This document shows positions 4,407 to 14,496 of a stretch of 58,042 bases of DNA, piece by piece. Under the pieces are notes generated by a model that saw only the letters and a list, made by a program, of their open reading frames with translations, did no database searches and was not told where the DNA came from. The stretch spans positions 1 through 58,042 of the forward strand of contig JAUNGB010000024.1 in assembly GCA_030524715.1 (NCBI GenBank), read 5' to 3'. Source of the stretch: Eubacteriales bacterium. GTDB taxonomy: Bacteria > Bacillota > Clostridia > Lachnospirales > Lachnospiraceae. Positions within the stretch are counted from its first letter, which is position 1, and every line of letters begins with the position of its first letter. A program made the position numbers and the translations under genes.

Positions 4407-4483
4407 TTCTGCATGTAGTCATATGCTGTTTTTTGACTGACGGTCAGAGTTTTTATAGTAAATATATGATTTAGCAATAATTA

Positions 4484-4531
4484 ATCCCTCAACTCCCGAG
4501 CATGTGCGCGGGAGTTGAGGGATGCTTTATC
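4484..4531. terminator. Bidirectional hairpin terminator after tpiA
   Basis: A perfect 15 bp stem (ATCCCTCAACTCCCG at 4484-4498, complement at 4509-4523) with a 10-base loop. Flanking T-rich or A-rich bases could serve both tpiA and the convergent gene ending at 4579. Confidence 0.8.
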
Positions 4532-4578
4532 TTATGTATGTAAAACGTTTGTTTAAACGAGATTTTTCCGGTATGTAT

Positions 4579-5055
4579 TTAAGAAACTTTTTCTTTCAGA
4601 TTGCAGATATCCAATGAATTTTGGCAAACAATACGTTCCAGCGAAAAGATCCTGCTGTCGTGGTTGTCCAGAAGGCTTTTTATGTGTGTGTCAAATTCCT
4701 TCTGGAAGATGTAAAATTCTTCAAGAATTGAGTAATTCTTGTTTATCGTTTGTTTGATGGATTTGATATCAGCCTTAACCTCGACCATGTCGGACTTAAG
4801 CACAGCAACGTCAGCTTTAACCTCGACCATGTCAGACTTAAGTTCCGCGACGTCAGTTTTGAGTTCTGCAACATCAGCTTTAACCTCGACCATGTCAGAT
4901 TTGAGGTTGCCTACATCTGTCTTGAGATCGCGGATATCAGATTTGACTTCGATCATATCTGTCTTTAAAATGTTAAGATCTGACTGCATGGGTGCAAGCG
5001 CGCTTAAGAAGATTACGGATATATTCTGTAAATCCTCATTGGTTAATGCCATCAT
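4579..5055 (-). CDS. Heptad-repeat coiled-coil protein, function unknown
   Basis: I do not recognise a named family. The 158 aa product is almost entirely helical. Residues about 25-105 are a regular coiled coil built from repeats of the type LKSDMVEVKADVAE, with hydrophobic residues at heptad a/d positions and Asp, Lys and Glu elsewhere. A short N-terminal segment and a C-terminal segment of about 50 residues are less regular. The DNA repeats in multiples of 21 bp (seven codons): the same 17-mer starts at 4775, 4817 and 4880. The start is supported by AAAGGAGGAGG just before ATG ATG. No signal peptide or membrane segment is visible. It is monocistronic and converges on tpiA. Similar short repetitive proteins occur in many Lachnospiraceae, but I know of no assigned role. 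Confidence 0.75.
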   Translation of the reverse strand: MMALTNEDLQNISVIFLSALAPMQSDLNILKTDMIEVKSDIRDLKTDVGNLKSDMVEVKADVAELKTDVAELKSDMVEVKADVAVLKSDMVEVKADIKSIKQTINKNYSILEEFYIFQKEFDTHIKSLLDNHDSRIFSLERIVCQNSLDICNLKEKVS

Positions 5056-5143
5056 AATTCCTCCTCCTTTCTTTTATGATAGAAAGAGTATAGCACAAAA
5101 ACACAAATAAGTCCATAATGGGCTAAAAATTATTTTTTATTTA

Positions 5144-5172
5144 TTGTCATATGTAAAAAAAAGAAGTATACT
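5144..5172 (+). promoter_or_regulatory. Promoter upstream of the 190 aa orphan gene
   Basis: TTGTCA (5144-5149) and TATACT (5167-5172) with a 17 bp spacer, about 90 bp before the ATG at 5262. Confidence 0.7.
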
Positions 5173-5261
5173 TTAATAAAGAGTTTTACATCATAATTTT
5201 ACTGTTTTCCAAGATACGGAATATCCGTAGGAACTATAAAAGCACAAGGAAGGAAAAAATA

Positions 5262-5834
5262 ATGAAAACACGGTTGAACAGATATAAGTTTGATAAGATC
5301 AGCGGTAAAATGGCACAGGATTTTGGGACAATCCATAAGGGAGAAGAGGATTTCTATTCAATGATTTTATTTCCTATGGAAAGTAATATGCTGAAACTGC
5401 ACCGGCAGAACGAGGCATGGAATGGACGGCGTGCCATTGAAGCGATTCATATTTGCCTGCTGACAATTGATGGATATCTGAAAGGGGAAGAGTATGATTT
5501 TGCCCCCTTTTTATCAGCGGATAATAAGGAGTTTGTGAACGGTCTTTTGATGAGTTTCGATCCTTTTACCAATGACGCAATTCATAATACTATAGAAGAT
5601 GACTATCATCTGGATTCCACGGAAGATTTACAGAGATATTTTCAGACGCCGGTTATGTGCCTCTTAAGAATTGAAAAATCAATTGAATTATGGACGAAAG
5701 AAATGGGCGCAAACGGATATTTTATCTTTTTAGAGAACAATATTGGAAGTATGGTTCCCCAGGATACGAAAATGGACTATACTGTTGAGGTGAAAGAGAA
5801 AAAAGGGATTTTTAGCCGATTTTTCCAAAGGTGA
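5262..5834 (+). CDS. Hypothetical protein (190 aa)
   Basis: I do not recognise the family. The product is a soluble-looking acidic 190 aa protein without a signal peptide or membrane helix. It has a central Trp- and Arg-bearing helix region (NEAWNGRRAIEAIH, about residues 47-60), a DSTEDLQRYFQTP stretch, and a basic, aromatic C-terminus (GIFSRFFQR). ATG follows AAGGAAGG and a good promoter lies upstream, so it is probably a real expressed gene. It stands alone between the coiled-coil gene and the serine dehydratase genes. An immunity-like or stress role would be a guess, and I assign none. Confidence 0.7.
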   Translation: MKTRLNRYKFDKISGKMAQDFGTIHKGEEDFYSMILFPMESNMLKLHRQNEAWNGRRAIEAIHICLLTIDGYLKGEEYDFAPFLSADNKEFVNGLLMSFDPFTNDAIHNTIEDDYHLDSTEDLQRYFQTPVMCLLRIEKSIELWTKEMGANGYFIFLENNIGSMVPQDTKMDYTVEVKEKKGIFSRFFQR

Positions 5835-5927
5835 TGTAAAGCGAACATTCGCAAAACTCGCGCTTAAGCGCTTTTGAGTCTGCTATCGCAGCCGCGTTTT
5901 GCTTATTAGAGGGGTGGGTTGCTAATC

Positions 5928-5994
5928 CAACAGCAGACTTTCATCGTAATAAATTGCATGAAAGTCTGCCGCCGGGTTGCAACCGCACAGGTAG
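5928..5994. repeat. Palindromic repeat family 2, copy A
   Basis: Inverted copy of the element at 30586-30672. The inner stem is AGCAGACTTTCAT paired with ATGAAAGTCTGC, with a loop over AATAAAT, and the intact right outer arm is CCGCACAGGT. The left outer arm is degraded. A separate short palindrome (GCGCTTAAGCGC, 5860-5871) lies upstream in the same 225 bp gap. Confidence 0.75.
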
Positions 5995-6059
5995 AAAAGT
6001 TTGCGGGAGATTTTTAACATACATAACAGTTTAGAAGCAGTATTTAAAGAAGAATACGT

Positions 6060-6950
6060 TTAATTCTGATTTTGTCCAAATACCTGTTTATGAAGCCGTT
6101 TACCAGTTGGGGTGGCGGCAAGCCCTCCCTCCGCAGTTTCTTTCAATGCGGCAGGCATCATATCACCGATCTTCTTCATTGTCCAGATAACCTCATCGGC
6201 AGGAATCGCGCTCTTAATACCTGCCAGTGCCAGTTCTGCAGCTACAAACGCCCCTGCCACGCCAGAGGCGTTTCTTTTGATACATGGGATTTCCACTAAC
6301 CCTGCTACCGGGTCGCACACCAATCCAAGAATATTTTTCAATGAAATAGCAATTGCTGAATCTATCATTTCCGAAGTTCCTCCGGCCAATTCCACAATTG
6401 CTGCGGCAGCCATAGCTGCGGCAGAACCACACTCCGCCTGGCAGCCGCCCTGTGCGCCGGCCAGAGAAGCATTGTTTGCAATTACCATTCCCACAGCAGA
6501 AGCAGTGAACAGAGACATCACGCATTCCCGTTCAGAAACCCCTTTTTCCTGCTGCATGGTCAGAACGGCCGCCGGGACGATTCCGCAGCTTCCGGCTGTA
6601 GGCGCCGCCACAATCCGCCCCATGGCCGCATTTAACTCAGATATGGCCAAAGCCCGGTAAAGAGCTCCGCCCAGCAGTGACCCTGTGAGATTTTTTCCAT
6701 TATCTGCTGCCTGCTTCATTTTTGCGGCATCGCCTCCGGTCAAACCGCTGGTACTGCGGAGATCCGGGTCGCATCCCGGTTGGATACATGCGGCCATAAC
6801 CTTATAGTTTTCCCTCATTTTTTCATAAACATCTTCCTCGGAAATACCCAACTGCTCTGCCTGCTGAATGAGAACCAGCGAAGAAAGTCTGCAGCCCTCT
6901 TCAGAGGCGGCCTTCAATAAATCTGCAATCGAATTATAATTTAACTCCAA
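6060..6950 (-). CDS. sdaAA: L-serine dehydratase, iron-sulfur type, alpha subunit
   Basis: Catalytic subunit of the [4Fe-4S] enzyme that deaminates L-serine to pyruvate and ammonia. The 296 aa product carries conserved Cys-containing motifs of the family: GSCGIVPAA, CQAECGSAAAM and CDPVAGLVEIPC. Its C-terminal PTGKRL motif and length also match. The start codon is TTG (6950-6948), preceded by AGGAGGGG, with no better ATG in frame. It lies 98 bp downstream of sdaAB and is probably co-transcribed with it. The subunits stay separate, as in Bacillus and many clostridia, rather than fused as in E. coli SdaA. Confidence 0.95.
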   Translation of the reverse strand: MELNYNSIADLLKAASEEGCRLSSLVLIQQAEQLGISEEDVYEKMRENYKVMAACIQPGCDPDLRSTSGLTGGDAAKMKQAADNGKNLTGSLLGGALYRALAISELNAAMGRIVAAPTAGSCGIVPAAVLTMQQEKGVSERECVMSLFTASAVGMVIANNASLAGAQGGCQAECGSAAAMAAAAIVELAGGTSEMIDSAIAISLKNILGLVCDPVAGLVEIPCIKRNASGVAGAFVAAELALAGIKSAIPADEVIWTMKKIGDMMPAALKETAEGGLAATPTGKRLHKQVFGQNQN

Positions 6951-7048
6951 ATCAAACCCCTCCTGTTTACAAAAATAATAGTTCTGAAAAACAGTAAAAT
7001 AATCACAATAATTGCATATATAAATACAAATGTTGCCTGTTAATCCTG

Positions 7049-7708
7049 TCAGATCGGCTGCAGCATAGTACTGGAATAAATATTGGGCAGTTGATTGATT
7101 TTGTCATTTAATTCCGATCCAAACACACCGTCGATTTCAATGGTCATAACGGCCTGTCCGCCCTTTGCTTTACGCGCAAGGCGGAAATTACAGATATTGA
7201 CTCCATATTCTGCCATCAATTCCGTAACTGCGGCTATGGTTCCGGGGGCATCTCTGTGAAGAACGATCAGGCTTGTATACTGCCCTGTTAATGAAACCTC
7301 CATACCATTTACCCTGGTGATAAGGATATTGCCTCCCCCAATGCTGCTACCGCGAAGGCTTACCTGGCGGCCATTTTGGGAAATAAGGGTTATTTCCGCT
7401 GTATTCGGATGGGCATCCTCAAGCTCGCCTGTGATGATTTCAACGGTAAGTCCCTCATTTTCAGCAGCATCAAGGGAAAAACGGATTCGCTCATCATCCG
7501 TTCTCATTCCGAGAATACCTGCAATAATGGCTTTATCCGTTCCATGTCCCTTATAAGTTTTGGCAAAGGAGCCATGAAGAAGGATGTGGGCCTTTACCGG
7601 AGCTTCCCCAAGCAGCGCTCTTGTGATCAATCCGATACGCGCCGCTCCTGCCGTATGGGAACTGGAGGGCCCGATCATCACCGGACCTAAAATATCAAAA
7701 ACATTCAC
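7049..7708 (-). CDS. sdaAB: L-serine dehydratase, iron-sulfur type, beta subunit
   Basis: Partner subunit of SdaAA. The 219 aa product starts NVFDILGPVMIGPSSSHTAG, the SDH-beta signature, and ends with an ACT domain (about residues 148-219, LIVLHRDAPGTIAAVTELMAEYG). I chose the GTG at 7708 because GGGGAGGT lies 7 bases upstream and the resulting length matches the family. The open frame extends to an ATG at 7840, but those 44 extra residues have no family match. The gene is first in the sdaAB-sdaAA pair. Confidence 0.93.
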   Translation of the reverse strand: MNVFDILGPVMIGPSSSHTAGAARIGLITRALLGEAPVKAHILLHGSFAKTYKGHGTDKAIIAGILGMRTDDERIRFSLDAAENEGLTVEIITGELEDAHPNTAEITLISQNGRQVSLRGSSIGGGNILITRVNGMEVSLTGQYTSLIVLHRDAPGTIAAVTELMAEYGVNICNFRLARKAKGGQAVMTIEIDGVFGSELNDKINQLPNIYSSTMLQPI

Positions 7709-8007
7709 ATGCTTACCTCCCCTCTTTTGCAGCGCTTTTTCTTTATTATATCCGGATTCAGTAAATTTAGAAAGGCTTTTTTCGGAAAAGAAGGTTATAT
7801 TCTCTAACCAAAGGCGTAATTCTCTAAAGTGAATTACCATATACGGTACGCATGAAATATCATTTTCGAGTATAATAATATCGGGGATAAAATACCTTTA
7901 GTCCCAATATCACCGTATAGAATTATAATAGGCTGCTGCATAGAAAGAATGCATTTTTTATAATGCTGCGTACACAGAGGAAAAACAATGTTGGTAAAAC
8001 ACGGTAA
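7709..8007. promoter_or_regulatory. Upstream region of sdaAB with operator-like inverted repeat
   Basis: A perfect 7 bp inverted repeat, GTAATTC (7816-7822) and GAATTAC (7831-7837), lies about 110 bp before the sdaAB start. It overlaps the second of two ATTCTCTAA direct repeats (7799 and 7819 regions). The arrangement looks like a regulator-binding site, but no regulator gene is adjacent. I cannot place the sdaAB promoter confidently. Confidence 0.35.
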
Positions 8008-8205
8008 AAAAGAAAATATAACAGAAAATTTCAGGAGAAATGGATACTGTACCGATCTACGGCAGAAGAAATAAAGAAAGAGCTATCTCTGTATCAGGCG
8101 GGACGGCAAAAGAATAAAGAGATAGAAAAATTGATTATTAAACTGGAGCAGTGTATGAGTAAAGAACGTTCCAAATGGCAGATTTTAAGTGAAAACGAAA
8201 ATTAA
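8008..8205 (+). pseudogene. Remnant of a DUF4231/SLATT-type protein (C-terminal part)
   Basis: An open frame of 65 codons without an ATG encodes FQEKWILYRSTAEEIKKE and onward to a KERSKWQ end. The pattern W-x2-YR-x2-AE-x2-K at the start and E-x4-W at the end is the C-terminal signature I know from DUF4231 (SLATT-like) membrane proteins. The family's two transmembrane helices are absent. A short ATG frame at 7988 (MLVKHGK...) would join this frame after one added T at the T-run near 8029-8031, suggesting a one-base deletion. SLATT proteins are often linked to nucleotide-sensing defence modules (family knowledge). Whether this was ever part of the downstream cassette is inference. Confidence 0.5.
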
Positions 8206-8338
8206 TCTAAGTTTAAGCCGGATAACGGCCGGAATGTTTACAGTGGACAGGATAGAAAAAGGATAACCGCCAGTTATCACTGAAATAAAATACCCTTAAA
8301 AAAACGGACGTATTCCCACACCTGAGAGGAGGTTCCCT

Positions 8339-10819
8339 ATGAAGGAAAAAAACAAAAAGCGTATTGCCTTTCTGGATCAGCAGTATCAAAAACTTGAGAA
8401 GGCATGTACCCGATTATATGAGATTCACAGTTACCAGGAGTATGGAGATTCGGAGTATCATAACTATTGGAAGCAGGCGAGAGAACTTTGTTCCAAAATT
8501 GAGAGTAATGAATGGGAAAGCTTACAGGATGTACTGAATATATACAAGGCAAAAGCCAATAGTTACCTGGGGCTTGCTTATACGGAAAAGGGAGATTACG
8601 ATGAAGCTCTGAAGTATTTAAAATTGGCAAGAGAGAAAATAGAAAAACAGTCTGCCCAATATCTGGAGCCTGCAGTTTACGTCAGAACTTTAACAAATCT
8701 TGGTAAATGTTATATGGAAAAGCATAGTCCGGCAGAACTCATTGAAGAATGTCACAATAGTGCGGATCAGGTATTAAAGGATGTAAGAGATTATTTTCAT
8801 AAAGAAGAGCCTTATTGGTATATAAAAGCAGCATTGGAACTGAAATTACAGCAGGCGATAGCAAAAATGGATGTTTATGGTCAGCCGTGCGGATCGTGGG
8901 AAGAAGAAGCGTGGAATTTTCTGGAAGATGCGAAAGCATATTATGGAAAACTGCCGGTTTATGCAGATGTATTGAAAAAAGCTGCTGACAGACAGAAATA
9001 TGCGCAATGGAAAAGGCGGCAGGAAGCTACGCTTGAGACAAGTAAAGGGGAATATTTTAAGAAACTTTACTTTTCCACTAAGGATATTGTACGGTTCCTG
9101 AACGATCATAATGACGCGACTGATGATTGGAGAGAAAAACGGAGATATTTGAATGAAGTCCAGAAGAGGCTGCAGGAAGAACTGAAATATGAATTAAGTC
9201 AGGAGCAAATGAATAAAGCTTCCGGAGAACGTGAACGTCTGGAATGGCTTTTGGAAAAGGTAGAGGGTGTGAAACCTTTATTGAGTCAGTATATAGGTAG
9301 TTTGAAACAGGCAACGGAAGAATTGAGGGAATATTGTCTGGAGGTTGCATTCCGCACTTTTGCTTATGTGATTGGAAAAATACGTAATAATACTATCAGT
9401 ATGGGAAACATTGCTATTCTGCTGTACGATTATTATGGGGAAACCGGTAAAAGAAACTTTCTGTCAGATCTGTTAGAGCAGTATTGGAGCGATTTTCGGG
9501 ATATTTCAATCAGTAAAAATAATACAGTCATAGAAAATATCAAGGTTATTTTGAATAAGATTCTTGAGATAGACCCTATTAATATGTTTGCATTGAACAT
9601 TAAGGCTGCATTATCAAAGGATCTGTCCATTTCCGGTGAGATCGATCATTATCCAACCCTTCGTCAGTCTTCTCTTAAAAGGCGCTTCGGACTGATAGAG
9701 GATGAGCTGGAAGGAAAATGTAAAAATGAATGGCAGCGTATAGAAATTAATCTGATCATTCTTCACAATAAGATAGTGGAGTTTATGAATTCTGCTATTA
9801 TTGATTTTTCCAGTCCGGAATGGAAGAAGCTGGAAGTTGCCCATTATACCAGGCTGGAAGTGATTCCTAAGTTGCTCAATAAGGGCGGACACTGCAGATT
9901 AAAGATACAGAATGTCCATCATCTGAATGATCCGCTGGAAGGCGCCCTGTTTGTAGATCAGCTGAAAAAGAAAATAGGAGGGGAAGATAAACCGCTGATC
10001 CAGGAACTTTTGAGGCTTTACAATTCTGAGAAAAACGGTGCTGTCCGTAATTCTGTTTATATGGGCAGCTTTACCGGAAAAGTGGATCAACTGAATATGT
10101 GGACCAGATACGGTGATAATGGAAAGGGCTGCTGCCTGCAGATCGAAGCAGAGAAGTTCTTTGACAGTTGTTCAAAAATATCTTTTTCTGAGGCGTCTAC
10201 GAACGATGGCCCTGGTTATTATAAAATGGACGACATTAAATATCCGTTGTACATGGTGATGTATTTACCTGAAGATCCATGTATAGATTTAAAGGAAAGA
10301 GAAGAATATGCCAGGAGCAGGGCAGAAATGGCACGCCATGATGTATGCTGGTGGGAAAAACAGGCAGATTTGATTCATGCCTTTATCGGTTTAAAAGAAA
10401 AAGTGGTTTTGCTTTTAAATAAAATCGAGGATGATTTTTGTGCGATCGACAGAGATATATCAGGACTCAGTAAAGAAACCAGGGAAAAAATAAAACGTGA
10501 ATTGTGCAATATTATAATGGCTATTCTGGATTTGGCCCGTTTCCTGATCAAAAGCGAATATTATCAGGATGAGAGAGAATACCGGATTATACAGTATGCA
10601 TCGGATCCAAAATATGATGACAGTGTAAAGGGGATCCCCAAATTATATATTGAAGTGGAAAAGGATATGGTCTATCAAAAGATATTCTTTGGCCCGCTGG
10701 TTCAGAATTTTGATTCCCAGGCAGCCTATATTCTTAATATCAAAAAGGATGCAGAAGATGGAAATCCTAAAACCAACTGGGAAGTTGAAGTATGCAAATC
10801 AGGCATTTCTTATCGGTGA
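8339..10819 (+). CDS. TPR-repeat protein with C-terminal DUF2971 domain
   Basis: The function is unknown. The 826 aa cytoplasmic-looking product has TPR-like helices at residues about 60-140 (YLGLAYTEKGDYDEALKYLK), a long charged helical middle with probable coiled coil around 270-330, and a DUF2971 domain from about 500. Visible DUF2971 landmarks are HYTRLEVIPKLL (about 501), LNDPLEG (about 530), SFTGKVDQLNMWTRYG (about 576-591) and DEREYRI (about 743). No signal peptide. ATG follows GAGGAGG. The next gene starts 15 bp after the stop, so the two are one operon. Codons are A-rich (AAA, GAA, AGA, ATA) compared with the neighbouring glycolytic genes, which fits horizontal acquisition. DUF2971 proteins are scattered in accessory regions and their biochemistry is not established. 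Confidence 0.88.
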   Translation: MKEKNKKRIAFLDQQYQKLEKACTRLYEIHSYQEYGDSEYHNYWKQARELCSKIESNEWESLQDVLNIYKAKANSYLGLAYTEKGDYDEALKYLKLAREKIEKQSAQYLEPAVYVRTLTNLGKCYMEKHSPAELIEECHNSADQVLKDVRDYFHKEEPYWYIKAALELKLQQAIAKMDVYGQPCGSWEEEAWNFLEDAKAYYGKLPVYADVLKKAADRQKYAQWKRRQEATLETSKGEYFKKLYFSTKDIVRFLNDHNDATDDWREKRRYLNEVQKRLQEELKYELSQEQMNKASGERERLEWLLEKVEGVKPLLSQYIGSLKQATEELREYCLEVAFRTFAYVIGKIRNNTISMGNIAILLYDYYGETGKRNFLSDLLEQYWSDFRDISISKNNTVIENIKVILNKILEIDPINMFALNIKAALSKDLSISGEIDHYPTLRQSSLKRRFGLIEDELEGKCKNEWQRIEINLIILHNKIVEFMNSAIIDFSSPEWKKLEVAHYTRLEVIPKLLNKGGHCRLKIQNVHHLNDPLEGALFVDQLKKKIGGEDKPLIQELLRLYNSEKNGAVRNSVYMGSFTGKVDQLNMWTRYGDNGKGCCLQIEAEKFFDSCSKISFSEASTNDGPGYYKMDDIKYPLYMVMYLPEDPCIDLKEREEYARSRAEMARHDVCWWEKQADLIHAFIGLKEKVVLLLNKIEDDFCAIDRDISGLSKETREKIKRELCNIIMAILDLARFLIKSEYYQDEREYRIIQYASDPKYDDSVKGIPKLYIEVEKDMVYQKIFFGPLVQNFDSQAAYILNIKKDAEDGNPKTNWEVEVCKSGISYR

Positions 10820-10834
10820 AAGGACTTAAAATTT

Positions 10835-13033
10835 ATGACTGGCAATATGGCGTTAAGAATTCATATTATAGAACCGCATCCCGATGATGCTCTGGGCTCT
10901 GCTCCTGCATTGTGTTTTTGTCCCGGAGCAGAGGTCGTAATTCATACGATTGCCGGCGGCGGACCGGATAGGGATGCTATTAATCTGGCAATCAGGCCGG
11001 AGTGCAGGAAATATGTAAAAAACCATCGGAAGTATTTTCTTGCTGATTATGATTGGGATTTACGTATAAAGGAACAGATTCCATATGAACAGATTCTGGA
11101 AGTGTACCGGAGAGAGTATGGAGACGGGCAGTTAGAAAGGCTGTCAGAGGTTTTACACAAGATCATAGCAGAAGTATGGAAGGAGAAGGCGCATCTGGCA
11201 ATTCCTCTGGGAATTATGCATCCTATGCATATGCTTGTAAGCAGTATGGCTATTGAATTGATAAAGCGCCGGAAAATCAATCCCGGAAAATTGTGGATTT
11301 ATGTGGATCACCCATATGATCTGCACAGCATGGGGACTTCCTTAATGAAACAAAGTGTTTCCTATGCAGAGAAAGAACTGGGGTATTGTATGGATCGTTT
11401 CGATGCAGTCGGGACGGATTTATATGCAGCAGGAGAAATTCTGCGGAGAATTTATAAAAATCGTTATCATGCAGAGTTTGACGGAGCCTTTAACAAAACC
11501 CTGTGCGGATTCTATCTGCCTGAAAAAATCAGCCGTGAACAAAAAAATATGGTAAGGCTGCAGAAAATAAAAATATTAATGATCGCGGCTCAGGGCTATC
11601 CATTTATTAAAGGCGGAGGTATGGCAAATGTTGTGTATGGACTTTCCAGGTCTTTGCAGAATTTTGCAGGCGACACCAGAATCCTGCTGCCGTGGTATGA
11701 CAGGATACCAGCGGATGGAACTTTTTTGAAGCGGATGGAGTTTTCACATTGTCTGCCGGACAATAGTCAGGTGGAATGCATTCTGGAAAGCAGGGAATAT
11801 CAGGGAATCATTTATTATTTCCTTAAAATTCCAGGTGTTCTGAAGGATGACAGAAATCCTCTTTCTTATGCTGCTTTTGCGGAGATCGTACTGGGAAAGG
11901 CGCTTCCTATGCTGGATTATGTGCCGGATATTCTTCATTGCCACGACTGGCAGAGTGCGATGATTCCTTTTTTATTGAAAACAAGATATAAGAAAGAACC
12001 GTTGTACCGGAAAATAAAAAGCCTGTACACCATTCATTTTTATGGTTATCAAGGGAGACTGCGCGGAAAAGAGTTAAGGTATTTTCTGGATTTTCCGGAT
12101 GACAGGAAAACGGACAGAGTTTTCTCGAAGCTTCAGTTTCTGACGGCGGAAGCAAAGAAAATGCTGGGGGTTCAGCAGCCATCGCTTATCAGCTTTATGA
12201 ATGCAGGGATTTACTTTGCAGATGTTGTTTCGACTGTCAGTGAAGGCTATGCAGAAGAAATATCGGATTATCCGGCGTTTAAAAAAGGGCCGGAGGTTGT
12301 TGGAATCAGAAACTCTATATTATATGATGTATATAATCCATTAACGGATACAAATCTTTCCATAAATTATGGTCCGGAAAATTTTGAAGGCCAGAAAGCT
12401 GAAATTAAAGTTCAGTTTCAAAGGTGTGCAGGATTGGAAGAAAATAAGGCAATCCTTTTGATTTGCATGGTCTGCCGTTTAGAGACAGTGAAAGGAATGG
12501 ACAGTGTTATCGAGATACTTCCGGAATTATTAAAATTGCCTTTGCAGATGGTAATTATGGGAGACGAGGGACGGGAGGGATATTACAGCCACAGCCTGGA
12601 AAGGATAAGGCAGCAGTTTCCGCTGAAATTTGTGCATTTTCCTTTTCAGAGAGAGAAAGAAACAGAGTTATACGCAGCTTCGGACGTTATTCTGGTACCA
12701 TCTTTGAGCGAGTCCTGCGGAACCGCACAGTTGATAGCCATGCATTATGGAGTGGTGCCTGTTGTCTCCTGCCTTGCTTCCCTGAGAGATTCGATTACTC
12801 CTTTAAGTAAAGAAAAAATGGACAAAGGCGTTGGATATCTGACCTACCCGGATGACGGAGCTATGCTGTATGAAGCTATACTTATGGTACTTCAGGATTT
12901 TGGAGACAGGAAAAAGTGGAGTTATATGGTGTGGAAATGTATGGTGACGGATTTCAGCTGGCAGGGTGCGGCGATGAAGAAGTATATGACGCTCTATCAC
13001 GGGATTATTTCGGGCATTCCGGAAAAGAAATAA
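10835..13033 (+). CDS. PIG-L deacetylase / GT5-like glycosyltransferase fusion
   Basis: A two-domain enzyme of 732 aa. Residues about 8-215 are a PIG-L (LmbE) N-acetylglucosamine-deacetylase-like domain: the zinc motif H15-P-D-D18 and a second HPMH motif (His129, His132). Residues about 244-725 resemble GT5 glycogen/starch synthases: KGGGMANV near 259 (cf. KTGGLADV), ILHCHDWQSA, TIHFYGYQG, STVSEGYAEEI, a YNPLTD motif, the ESCGTAQ donor-site motif near 626, and a C-terminal FSW...Y..LY. It probably transfers a sugar and deacetylates an N-acetylated sugar or related glycan. No membrane segment. ATG at 10835 is the first in frame; its Shine-Dalgarno (AAAGGA) is moderate. It forms an operon with the DUF2971 gene. 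Neither glycogen genes nor a cell-wall gene cluster lies nearby. Confidence 0.85.
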   Translation: MTGNMALRIHIIEPHPDDALGSAPALCFCPGAEVVIHTIAGGGPDRDAINLAIRPECRKYVKNHRKYFLADYDWDLRIKEQIPYEQILEVYRREYGDGQLERLSEVLHKIIAEVWKEKAHLAIPLGIMHPMHMLVSSMAIELIKRRKINPGKLWIYVDHPYDLHSMGTSLMKQSVSYAEKELGYCMDRFDAVGTDLYAAGEILRRIYKNRYHAEFDGAFNKTLCGFYLPEKISREQKNMVRLQKIKILMIAAQGYPFIKGGGMANVVYGLSRSLQNFAGDTRILLPWYDRIPADGTFLKRMEFSHCLPDNSQVECILESREYQGIIYYFLKIPGVLKDDRNPLSYAAFAEIVLGKALPMLDYVPDILHCHDWQSAMIPFLLKTRYKKEPLYRKIKSLYTIHFYGYQGRLRGKELRYFLDFPDDRKTDRVFSKLQFLTAEAKKMLGVQQPSLISFMNAGIYFADVVSTVSEGYAEEISDYPAFKKGPEVVGIRNSILYDVYNPLTDTNLSINYGPENFEGQKAEIKVQFQRCAGLEENKAILLICMVCRLETVKGMDSVIEILPELLKLPLQMVIMGDEGREGYYSHSLERIRQQFPLKFVHFPFQREKETELYAASDVILVPSLSESCGTAQLIAMHYGVVPVVSCLASLRDSITPLSKEKMDKGVGYLTYPDDGAMLYEAILMVLQDFGDRKKWSYMVWKCMVTDFSWQGAAMKKYMTLYHGIISGIPEKK

Positions 13034-13037
13034 AAGG

Positions 13038-13066
13038 TTGACAAAAGTCGTTTTCTGCCCTACTAT
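13038..13066 (+). promoter_or_regulatory. Promoter of hom
   Basis: Consensus TTGACA (13038-13043), 17 bp spacer, TACTAT (13061-13066), starting 5 bp after the preceding stop codon and about 135 bp before hom. Confidence 0.85.
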
Positions 13067-13099
13067 TAAATCCAGGCGTTATACACTGAAAAAATGTCA

Positions 13100-13168
13100 G
13101 TTATTGTTCATTCCCAGGCCCGTATTGGCTGCATGGCCATGGGCTGACAACATATAGTAGTCGGGAAT
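13100..13168. repeat. Palindromic repeat family 3, copy in hom leader
   Basis: Reverse-oriented, diverged copy of the elements at 21357, 28409 and 28598: GTTATTGTTCATTCCCAGGC on one side and CCATGGGCTGACAACATATAG on the other. It lies in the 5' untranslated region of hom, between promoter and start codon. Confidence 0.6.
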
Positions 13169-13200
13169 GTGAAAAACATTATAATAAAGGAGCCGCAAAA

Positions 13201-14496
13201 ATGGAGAATAAAGTTATCAACGCTGCTCTCCTTGGTCTTGGAACTGTAGGAACGGGCGTATATAAAGTCCTGAAAAACCAGGAAGAGGAAATGTCAGCAA
13301 AAATCGGAAGCCAGGTTAAGATTAAAAAAATTCTGGTCCGTAATCTGGAAAAAGCCGCGTCCAAGGTGGAAGATCCGGCGATTCTTACAAACCAATGGGA
13401 GGATATCCTCAATGATCCGGATATCGAGATCGTTATCGAGCTTATGGGCGGCATCAATCCTGCCAGAAGCTATATCCTTGCCGCGCTGAATGCAGGCAAG
13501 CATGTTGTTTCAGCCAATAAAGACCTTATTGCTGTGTATGGGCAGGAGCTTCTCGCGGCAGCGGAAGCGAATCATGTGGATTTCTTATTTGAAGCCGCAG
13601 TCGCCGGCGGAATTCCTATCATCCGTCCTCTGAAGCAGTGCCTTGCAGGCAATCATATGAGTGAGGTAATGGGAATCGTAAACGGAACCACAAACTTTAT
13701 TCTCACTAAAATGACCCAGGAAGGCATGGAATTTGCAGACGCACTTGCGCTTGCCACGGAGCTTGGCTATGCGGAGGCAGATCCGACAGCCGATATCGAA
13801 GGGCTTGACGCCGGGCGTAAGGTCGCTATTCTTGCAAGCGTAGCTTTTAATTCCCGTGTTGTATTTGACGATGTGCATATTGAGGGAATCACTAAAATTT
13901 CCGCTAAGGATATCCGGTATGCAAGAGAAATGGGCTGCGACATCAAGCTGCTGGGCGTTGCCCGCAATGAGGAAGACGGTATAGAAGCTTATGTCTGCCC
14001 AATGCTGATCCCAAGCGGGCACCCGCTTGCTTCTGTAAATGACTCTTATAACGCTGTGTTTGTCCATGGAGACGCTGTTGAGGACGCTATGTTCTTTGGA
14101 AGAGGAGCCGGCGAGCTTCCCACTGCCAGCGCAGTTGTCGGGGACATATTTGACATTGTAAGAAATATCCGGTCAAATTGTACTGCCAGAATTGGATGCA
14201 CCTGCTATAAAGAAATTCCGGTTAAAAAAATGGAGGATACCCATAACTGTTACTTCCTGCGTATGCAGGTGGAAGACCGCTGCGGAGTTCTTGCTGAAAT
14301 GACCGCTGTATTTGCCAAATATCATGTGAGTGTAGCGCAGATCATACAGAAAGAAACAAAGGCCCAGGACTGTGCCGAGGTAGTTGTAATCACTGCCAGG
14401 GTAAGGGAAGGCGATTTCCGTACTGCCATTAAAGAACTGGAAACCCGTGATTCCATCCGTAAGATCTCCAGTATCCTTCGTGTATATAATAAATAG
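13201..14496 (+). CDS. hom: Homoserine dehydrogenase
   Basis: Reduces L-aspartate 4-semialdehyde to L-homoserine with NAD(P)H, on the path to threonine and methionine. The 431 aa product has the N-terminal nucleotide-binding GLGTVGTGVYKV, the catalytic-domain motifs GGINPARSYI, SANKDLIA, GIVNGTTNFIL and GYAEADPTADIEG, and a C-terminal ACT domain (about 350-431, beginning MQVEDRCGVLAEMT) that usually confers feedback control by threonine. Length is typical. ATG follows AAAGGAG. It has its own consensus promoter and is the only threonine-pathway gene in the window. Confidence 0.97.
   Translation: MENKVINAALLGLGTVGTGVYKVLKNQEEEMSAKIGSQVKIKKILVRNLEKAASKVEDPAILTNQWEDILNDPDIEIVIELMGGINPARSYILAALNAGKHVVSANKDLIAVYGQELLAAAEANHVDFLFEAAVAGGIPIIRPLKQCLAGNHMSEVMGIVNGTTNFILTKMTQEGMEFADALALATELGYAEADPTADIEGLDAGRKVAILASVAFNSRVVFDDVHIEGITKISAKDIRYAREMGCDIKLLGVARNEEDGIEAYVCPMLIPSGHPLASVNDSYNAVFVHGDAVEDAMFFGRGAGELPTASAVVGDIFDIVRNIRSNCTARIGCTCYKEIPVKKMEDTHNCYFLRMQVEDRCGVLAEMTAVFAKYHVSVAQIIQKETKAQDCAEVVVITARVREGDFRTAIKELETRDSIRKISSILRVYNK

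Follow-up and report, generated by a model that had tools for sequence, protein, structure and literature searches.

A candidate two-gene accessory operon in a Lachnospiraceae genome encodes a DUF2971 protein and a PIG-L-like/GT5 glycosyltransferase fusion

Two large genes stand between sdaAB and hom on contig JAUNGB010000024.1 (C126) of a Lachnospiraceae genome, and the question raised by this locus is whether they form one system and, if so, of what kind. The window analyzed is a stretch of 58,042 nt of this contig, and gene positions refer to its forward strand. Gene 1 (8339–10819, +) is an open reading frame of 826 aa and gene 2 (10835–13033, +) one of 732 aa. The 15-bp gap between them (10820–10834, +), which an earlier note on this DNA had also described, holds, immediately behind the gene 1 stop, an AAGGA motif that resembles a ribosome-binding site, and an AGGAGG motif precedes the gene 1 ATG. 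Because of the shared strand, the short gap and the two motifs, the genes are likely to form one operon, as judged from the sequence. The locus is tentatively read here as an accessory, probably horizontally acquired operon that would encode a conflict-type ADP-ribosyltransferase (ART)-like effector and a bifunctional glycosyltransferase (GT)/de-N-acetylase, an account that is plausible and held with less than even confidence.

Gene 2 encodes a PIG-L-like domain (approximately residues 8–230) followed by a GT5-type GT (approximately residues 245–727). The GT5-type domain (11567–13015, +) has a strong match to Glyco_transf_5 (PF08323; E 1.3e-45, 156.4 bits, cut-off 22.7), and a strong GT1 domain is also found with Pfam. 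The GT5 catalytic residues K259, D371, H401, N493, R548, K553, and E626 are kept. Relative to 52 GlgA-type sequences, gene 2 carries the changes N402F, G578E, P627S, L630T, and TGG647-649LAS. The NCBIfam GlgA models are not reached (TIGR02095, 295.8 of 328.45 bits; NF001898, 300.8 of 603 bits), and neither are those of BshA (42.2 of 273.7 bits) and MshA (29.4 of 462.5 bits). The predicted GT-B model is closest to glycogen and starch synthases.

PIG-L enzymes, MshB among them, bind metal through an HxDD motif together with an HPxH-type motif. The N-terminal domain of gene 2 (10835–11554, +) contains H15, D17, D18, H129, and H132, whose roles we assume by analogy with MshB. PIG-L (PF02585) scores 12.3 bits with the whole protein and 14.6 bits with the domain alone, and the domain is called PIG-L-like because the Pfam cut-off of 28.2 is not reached. 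The match spans positions 2–127 of the 129-position profile. A second fusion was found in another genome of the family, G119; it is 940 aa long and aligns along the whole of gene 2 at 29% identity (E 3e-106). Both fusions (P0002 and P0003) match Pfam PIG-L below the cut-off (2 of 2 members, best E 0.041) and neither is matched by NCBIfam in this part (0 of 2). E13-P14-H15-x-D17-D18 and P124-L125-G126-x-x-H129-P130-x-H132 are invariant in both and in a phage protein (L166:5965–6660), which itself has no Pfam PIG-L match at E 1. Profile comparison of the PIG-L-like alignment with a phage PIG-L protein covered only 43 columns round the HxDD motif (E 0.001, probability 21%); the control comparison with gene 1 gave E 0.66. 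The predicted model of residues 1–241 is mostly below 50 in predicted local distance difference test (pLDDT), from an alignment of its own sequence only. On sequence grounds the GT5 and PIG-L-like fusion appears to be real: of the PIG-L and GT5-like joining that the earlier note proposed, the GT5 half is firm, and the PIG-L half is below threshold but has motifs invariant in three sequences. The active sites are not degenerate, with the GT5 catalytic residues and the HxDD and HPxH motifs all kept.

Gene 1 encodes an N-terminal helical region and a DUF2971 region at approximately residues 498–826. DUF2971 (PF11185) is matched at residues 587–750 with 33 bits, above the Pfam cut-off of 22. TPR_1 reaches 24.2 bits at residues 71–97, and since this best TPR match is below its cut-off of 27.8, the N-terminus is described as TPR-like; of the TPR-like repeats joined to DUF2971 that had been proposed, the latter part thus stands and the former falls short. 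A weak TagF_N match (18 bits, cut-off 27) was also seen. Conserved residues of the DUF2971 region are H502-Y503-T504, N530-D531-x2-E534, D583, W588, Y591, and E745-x-E747-x-R749. In a 10-row alignment with one partial row, H502, Y503, N530, D531, and E534 lie on columns conserved at 90% or more, and E745, E747, and R749 are invariant.

The DUF2971 region matches PADLOC family PDC-S31 (E 1.7e-11), as do 5 of 5 other gene 1-type proteins. The best structural rows for its model are DarT, KptA, and Tox-ART-HYD1, all of the ART fold, none being significant in Foldseek; families that do not appear in these fold lists are not thereby argued against. A weak HYD1 sequence match was found in 2 of 10 DUF2971 members, the window member not among them. 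HYD1 has been assigned an ART fold in the portion of PMC3482391 available. An ART-like fold is possible for the modeled DUF2971 region of gene 1, and H502-Y503, on an early strand, with E747, at the start of a later one, would be its likely catalytic signature, the equivalence to ART residues being our inference. PDB profile and sequence searches with the DUF2971 and PIG-L-like alignments returned only unconvincing matches (coiled-coil designs, a mitochondrial ribosomal protein, PH1313, and PP2A). DUF2971 is present in 2 of 14 control genomes. Within the accessible parts of the open-access literature searched, DUF2971 is named only in a genome re-annotation.

Both genes are sporadic in distribution. 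The genome draws overlap, so fusion counts are not additive across them. The N-terminal 240 residues of gene 2 are matched only in the window genome and G119 (2 of 397 family genomes). The fusion was found in 1 of 98 relatives, namely the window genome, with all other listed matches starting at residue 196 or later; in 2 of 391 genomes after removal of one spurious match (G818, Rho-like by eye); in 1 of 398 genomes of a further draw; and in 1 of 61 genomes of the G119 genus, where the remaining matches begin no earlier than residue 352. A scan of genome contigs gave 17 loci, none of which matched ahead of residue 235; the part matched is the GT. Among 397 family genomes, gene 1 has a match at E 0.001 in 17, a count that scored only the two best first-look candidates per genome and may miss weaker paralogs. 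It occurs in 1 of 64 genus genomes after removal of one spurious match (G046, 8 internal stops), and at full length in 1 of 16 genomes of the genus of G411.

Some hom match was found in 61 of the 64 genus genomes, at 65% identity or more in 46, and 20 of the latter were read upstream of hom. No gene 1 or gene 2 homolog was labeled in any of the 20 regions, four of which are short contig ends of 4.1–6.4 kb. No frame of at least 100 aa is listed between tpi and hom in 7 of the 20 (in L131, an antisense frame masks hom). The others hold sdaAA-sdaAB plus other genes, an AAA-ATPase/PDDEXK gene, transport-like genes, and more. Across the tpi-hom interval (window 4407–13200, and L118–L137), the genus shows everything between tpi directly beside hom and a spacing of several kb filled with unrelated genes. 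We regard the gap as variable and the cassette as accessory. A fixed housekeeping locus, raised earlier as a possible objection, is rejected given the absence from all 20 regions and from the genus genomes searched. The cassette was probably acquired horizontally. GC content is 0.389 in gene 1 and 0.429 in gene 2, against 0.458–0.514 in eight other genes measured. Among the 30 window open reading frames of at least 250 aa, the two genes rank 13 and 18 by distance from mean codon usage, so neither is an outlier; the unusual codon use reported earlier was not borne out, only the GC content being lower.

Carriage of the cassette by plasmids or phages was considered and rejected on the following searches: at limits of 1e-5 or 1e-3, no plasmid or phage matched gene 1 or the N-terminus of either fusion, and megablast of 7841–13200 against plasmids gave no match. 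No relatives of A1 (gene 1), A2 (gene 2), or P0003 were found among viral contigs. At a limit of 10, the gene 2 N-terminus matched 7 plasmid records, whose names mention no deacetylase, and 2 phage records, including Pseudomonas phage QdP_Psa3 (E 9e-3).

In QdP_Psa3 (L166:5965–10551), the PIG-L-like protein has a DNA polymerase on one side and, on the other, a GT, a nucleotide-sugar epimerase, and a further GT-like protein. It was found by tblastn at the E-value just given and aligns pairwise at E 8e-9 with P0002 and 5e-4 with P0003; it matches no Pfam family at E 1 and has no other phage relative at E 1e-3. The neighboring 478-aa GT has no meaningful BLASTP match to the fusion GT. The run may be a cluster for glycosylation of DNA or of the surface. 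In phage DLP5, genes are annotated as PIG-L, WcaG, WecE, methyltransferase, and GT, the last also without a meaningful match to the fusion GT. PIG-L and GT gene sets thus occur in QdP_Psa3 and DLP5, and nothing beyond that is shown. For DLP3, a relative of DLP5, the authors suggest that the GT modifies host lipopolysaccharide, and they refer to DNA modification in T-even phages (PMC7326821, available part).

Relatives of gene 1 lie in five different neighborhoods (G238, G462, G273, G411, and G119). Those of G238 and G462 stand among ordinary genes, as judged by eye. In G273, a serine recombinase precedes the relative and IS66 follows. In G411, the order is an HD+CYTH protein (at least 1,455 aa, continuing past the end of the stretch), a 596-aa protein, GrpE-like, Hsp70-like, the gene 1 homolog, and RhuM, with a Mutator-type transposase about 5 kb beyond. 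This run (L072:7470–19901) is a possible undescribed chaperone-linked conflict system. In G119, genes close to that of a 722-aa DUF2971 protein encode Vsr, a C5 methylase, a MutH-type type II restriction endonuclease, and an AAA ATPase whose many PADLOC matches are led by AriAB; the stretch (L074:2013–10747) is a defense island. Three of the five contexts are of defense or mobile kind, a count without a background rate. A DUF2971-like gene also closes the Streptococcus satellite phage Javan305 (L140:1–870). The ends of satellite phages often hold accessory cargo.

Adjacent copies were seen in the window genome only; with no second adjacent pair in the genomes searched, a conserved two-gene system is not supported. 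Homologs of the two rarely co-occur side by side, an outcome that the earlier note had named as one that would count against its reading. Several observations weigh against our preferred account. A single full-length gene 1 homolog was found, that of G411, and the 20 kb read around it hold no fusion. The one further fusion found (G119, L073:14792–17614, −) does not adjoin the gene 1-type relative of its genome, which is on a separate contig. That fusion has a chemotaxis-receptor-like gene on one side (by eye), and 4.1 kb away end adjacent glgC-like (E 6.5e-85) and glgD-like (E 1e-19) genes, named from PDB glucose-1-phosphate adenylyltransferase matches (L073:8316–10663), with at least 3 other genes between. 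Their proximity speaks for an ADP-glucose-type donor and a glycan role, and against a pure defense setting, though it may be due to chance. On the other side of this fusion, a divergent frame (L073:17907–18785) has a hydrophobic N-terminus by eye and no Pfam match at E 0.01.

The solitary copies in G411 and G119, and the five neighborhoods, would fit two independent accessory genes brought side by side by chance, gene 1 being a solitary TPR-like DUF2971 defense or stress gene and gene 2 an unrelated sugar enzyme with no joint function. This explanation is nearly as plausible as the preferred one; against it stand the 15-bp spacing, the same strand, the ribosome-binding-like motif at the gene 1 stop, and the presence of both gene kinds in G119. 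The last is a coincidence found post hoc, with a chance of about 1.3% because 5 of the 396 other genomes of the family carry a gene 1-type protein at E below 1e-10. Joint action is unproven; what speaks for it is the operon layout and this one genome-level coincidence.

The glgC- and glgD-like genes, the fact that GT5 is the glycogen/starch synthase family, and the resemblance of the GT-B model to those enzymes would also suit a surface or storage glycan module. In it, a glycan would be made or lengthened by the GT5 domain, with ADP-glucose or a related compound as donor, and deacetylated by the PIG-L-like domain, gene 1 serving as regulator or scaffold. Such a module is unlikely: GlgA-type genes also occur apart from the fusion, two in the window genome and one in G119 (C56), the fusion has lost residues invariant in the 52 GlgA-type sequences, other genes intervene between glgD and the fusion in G119, and inspection by eye showed no polymer export genes adjoining either fusion. 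Of the surface polymer or defense module proposed in the earlier note, the fusion and the defense or mobile context of some relatives stand, and the conserved pair does not.

Under the preferred reading of an effector with a bifunctional enzyme, gene 1 would be an intracellular conflict-type effector whose helical/TPR-like N-terminus senses or scaffolds and whose C-terminal DUF2971 region acts as an ART-like domain of the DarT/KptA/HYD1 kind. The GT5-type domain of gene 2 would glycosylate an acceptor with a nucleotide sugar as donor, and the PIG-L-like zinc domain would remove an N-acetyl group to leave a free amino sugar. A bolder extension, which we consider very improbable, is that DUF2971 is a widespread unrecognized ART-fold branch used as a defense effector, with gene 1 ADP-ribosylating a target and gene 2 adding a sugar and exposing its amine, either on that target or on a nucleotide sugar, to lock the modification or mark self. 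If DUF2971 is an ART-like effector, the phage-defense candidate family PDC-S31 gains a testable chemistry. The fusion would be a means of making a de-N-acetylated glycoside in one polypeptide.

The one-chain GT and deacetylase can be likened to the logic of BshA+BshB or MshA+MshB, in which a GT and then a PIG-L deacetylase act in sequence; BshA and MshA are GT4 enzymes whose genes are separate from the deacetylase. A low-molecular-weight thiol or cofactor pathway with the fusion as their one-chain equivalent is nonetheless quite unlikely, the BshA and MshA scores being far below cut-off and the occurrence found far too rare for a redox buffer (BshC and MshC were not searched for).

Around the cassette, sdaAB (7049–7840, −) and hom (13201–14496, +) are named by eye. 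The SLATT-like remnant suspected earlier is plausible: the fragment 8008–8202 (+) matches the C-terminal end of DUF4231 just under the Pfam cut-off (E 2.8e-4, 21.7 bits, cut-off 24.7) and SLATT_1 at E 0.03. Rfam gave 0 matches within the window, and promoter and terminator scans gave results near chance level. The interval 13034–13200 holds a promoter-like TTGACA-17-TACTAT (10/12) and a leader of about 130 bases ahead of hom, without an Rfam match. The protein encoded at 4579–5055 (−) shows a coiled-coil pattern of repeated VAELKSDMVEVKADV type, and weak relatives of this protein adjoin sdaAA in L120 and L121.

No PIG-L and GT fusion system is described, nor GT4-conflict named, within the accessible parts of the open-access literature searched, and as far as these show the fusion is new. 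The available part of PMC8195603 treats conflict-type GT4 domains and there mentions no PIG-L or deacetylase. Hsp70-GrpE conflict neighborhoods are described in PMC7159879 (available part) and resemble the setting of the G411 gene 1 copy, and CmdTAC, an mRNA ART defense system (PMC11618068, available part), has an ART effector in phage defense, as gene 1 would be; the locus differs from both in having no Hsp70 gene on its contig (0 HSP70 matches on C126, all 7 of the genome lying elsewhere; other chaperone or antitoxin partners were not searched for). PDC-S31 is matched by the DUF2971 region and is a label of candidate status without an attached mechanism. DarT, KptA, and Tox-ART-HYD1 are alike in the top structural rows, the weak HYD1 matches, and a putative H-Y and E signature, and differ in that gene 1 is joined to a TPR-like region, lacks a HYD1 match of its own, and gives no significant Foldseek result. 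From BshA+BshB (bacillithiol) and MshA+MshB (mycothiol), gene 2 differs in scoring below the BshA and MshA model cut-offs. From GlgA it differs by its N-terminal domain, its scores below the GlgA models, and the changes N402F, G578E/D, P627S/A, and L630T with loss of TGG in both fusion members, while the GT-B fold and the catalytic K, D, H, N, R, K, and E are those of the GT5 glycogen and starch synthases. Finally, the domain that sits below the Pfam cut-off and is fused to GT5 shares with the PIG-L/MshB/BshB de-N-acetylases (PF02585) the HxDD and HPxH motifs and an alignment over the whole domain.
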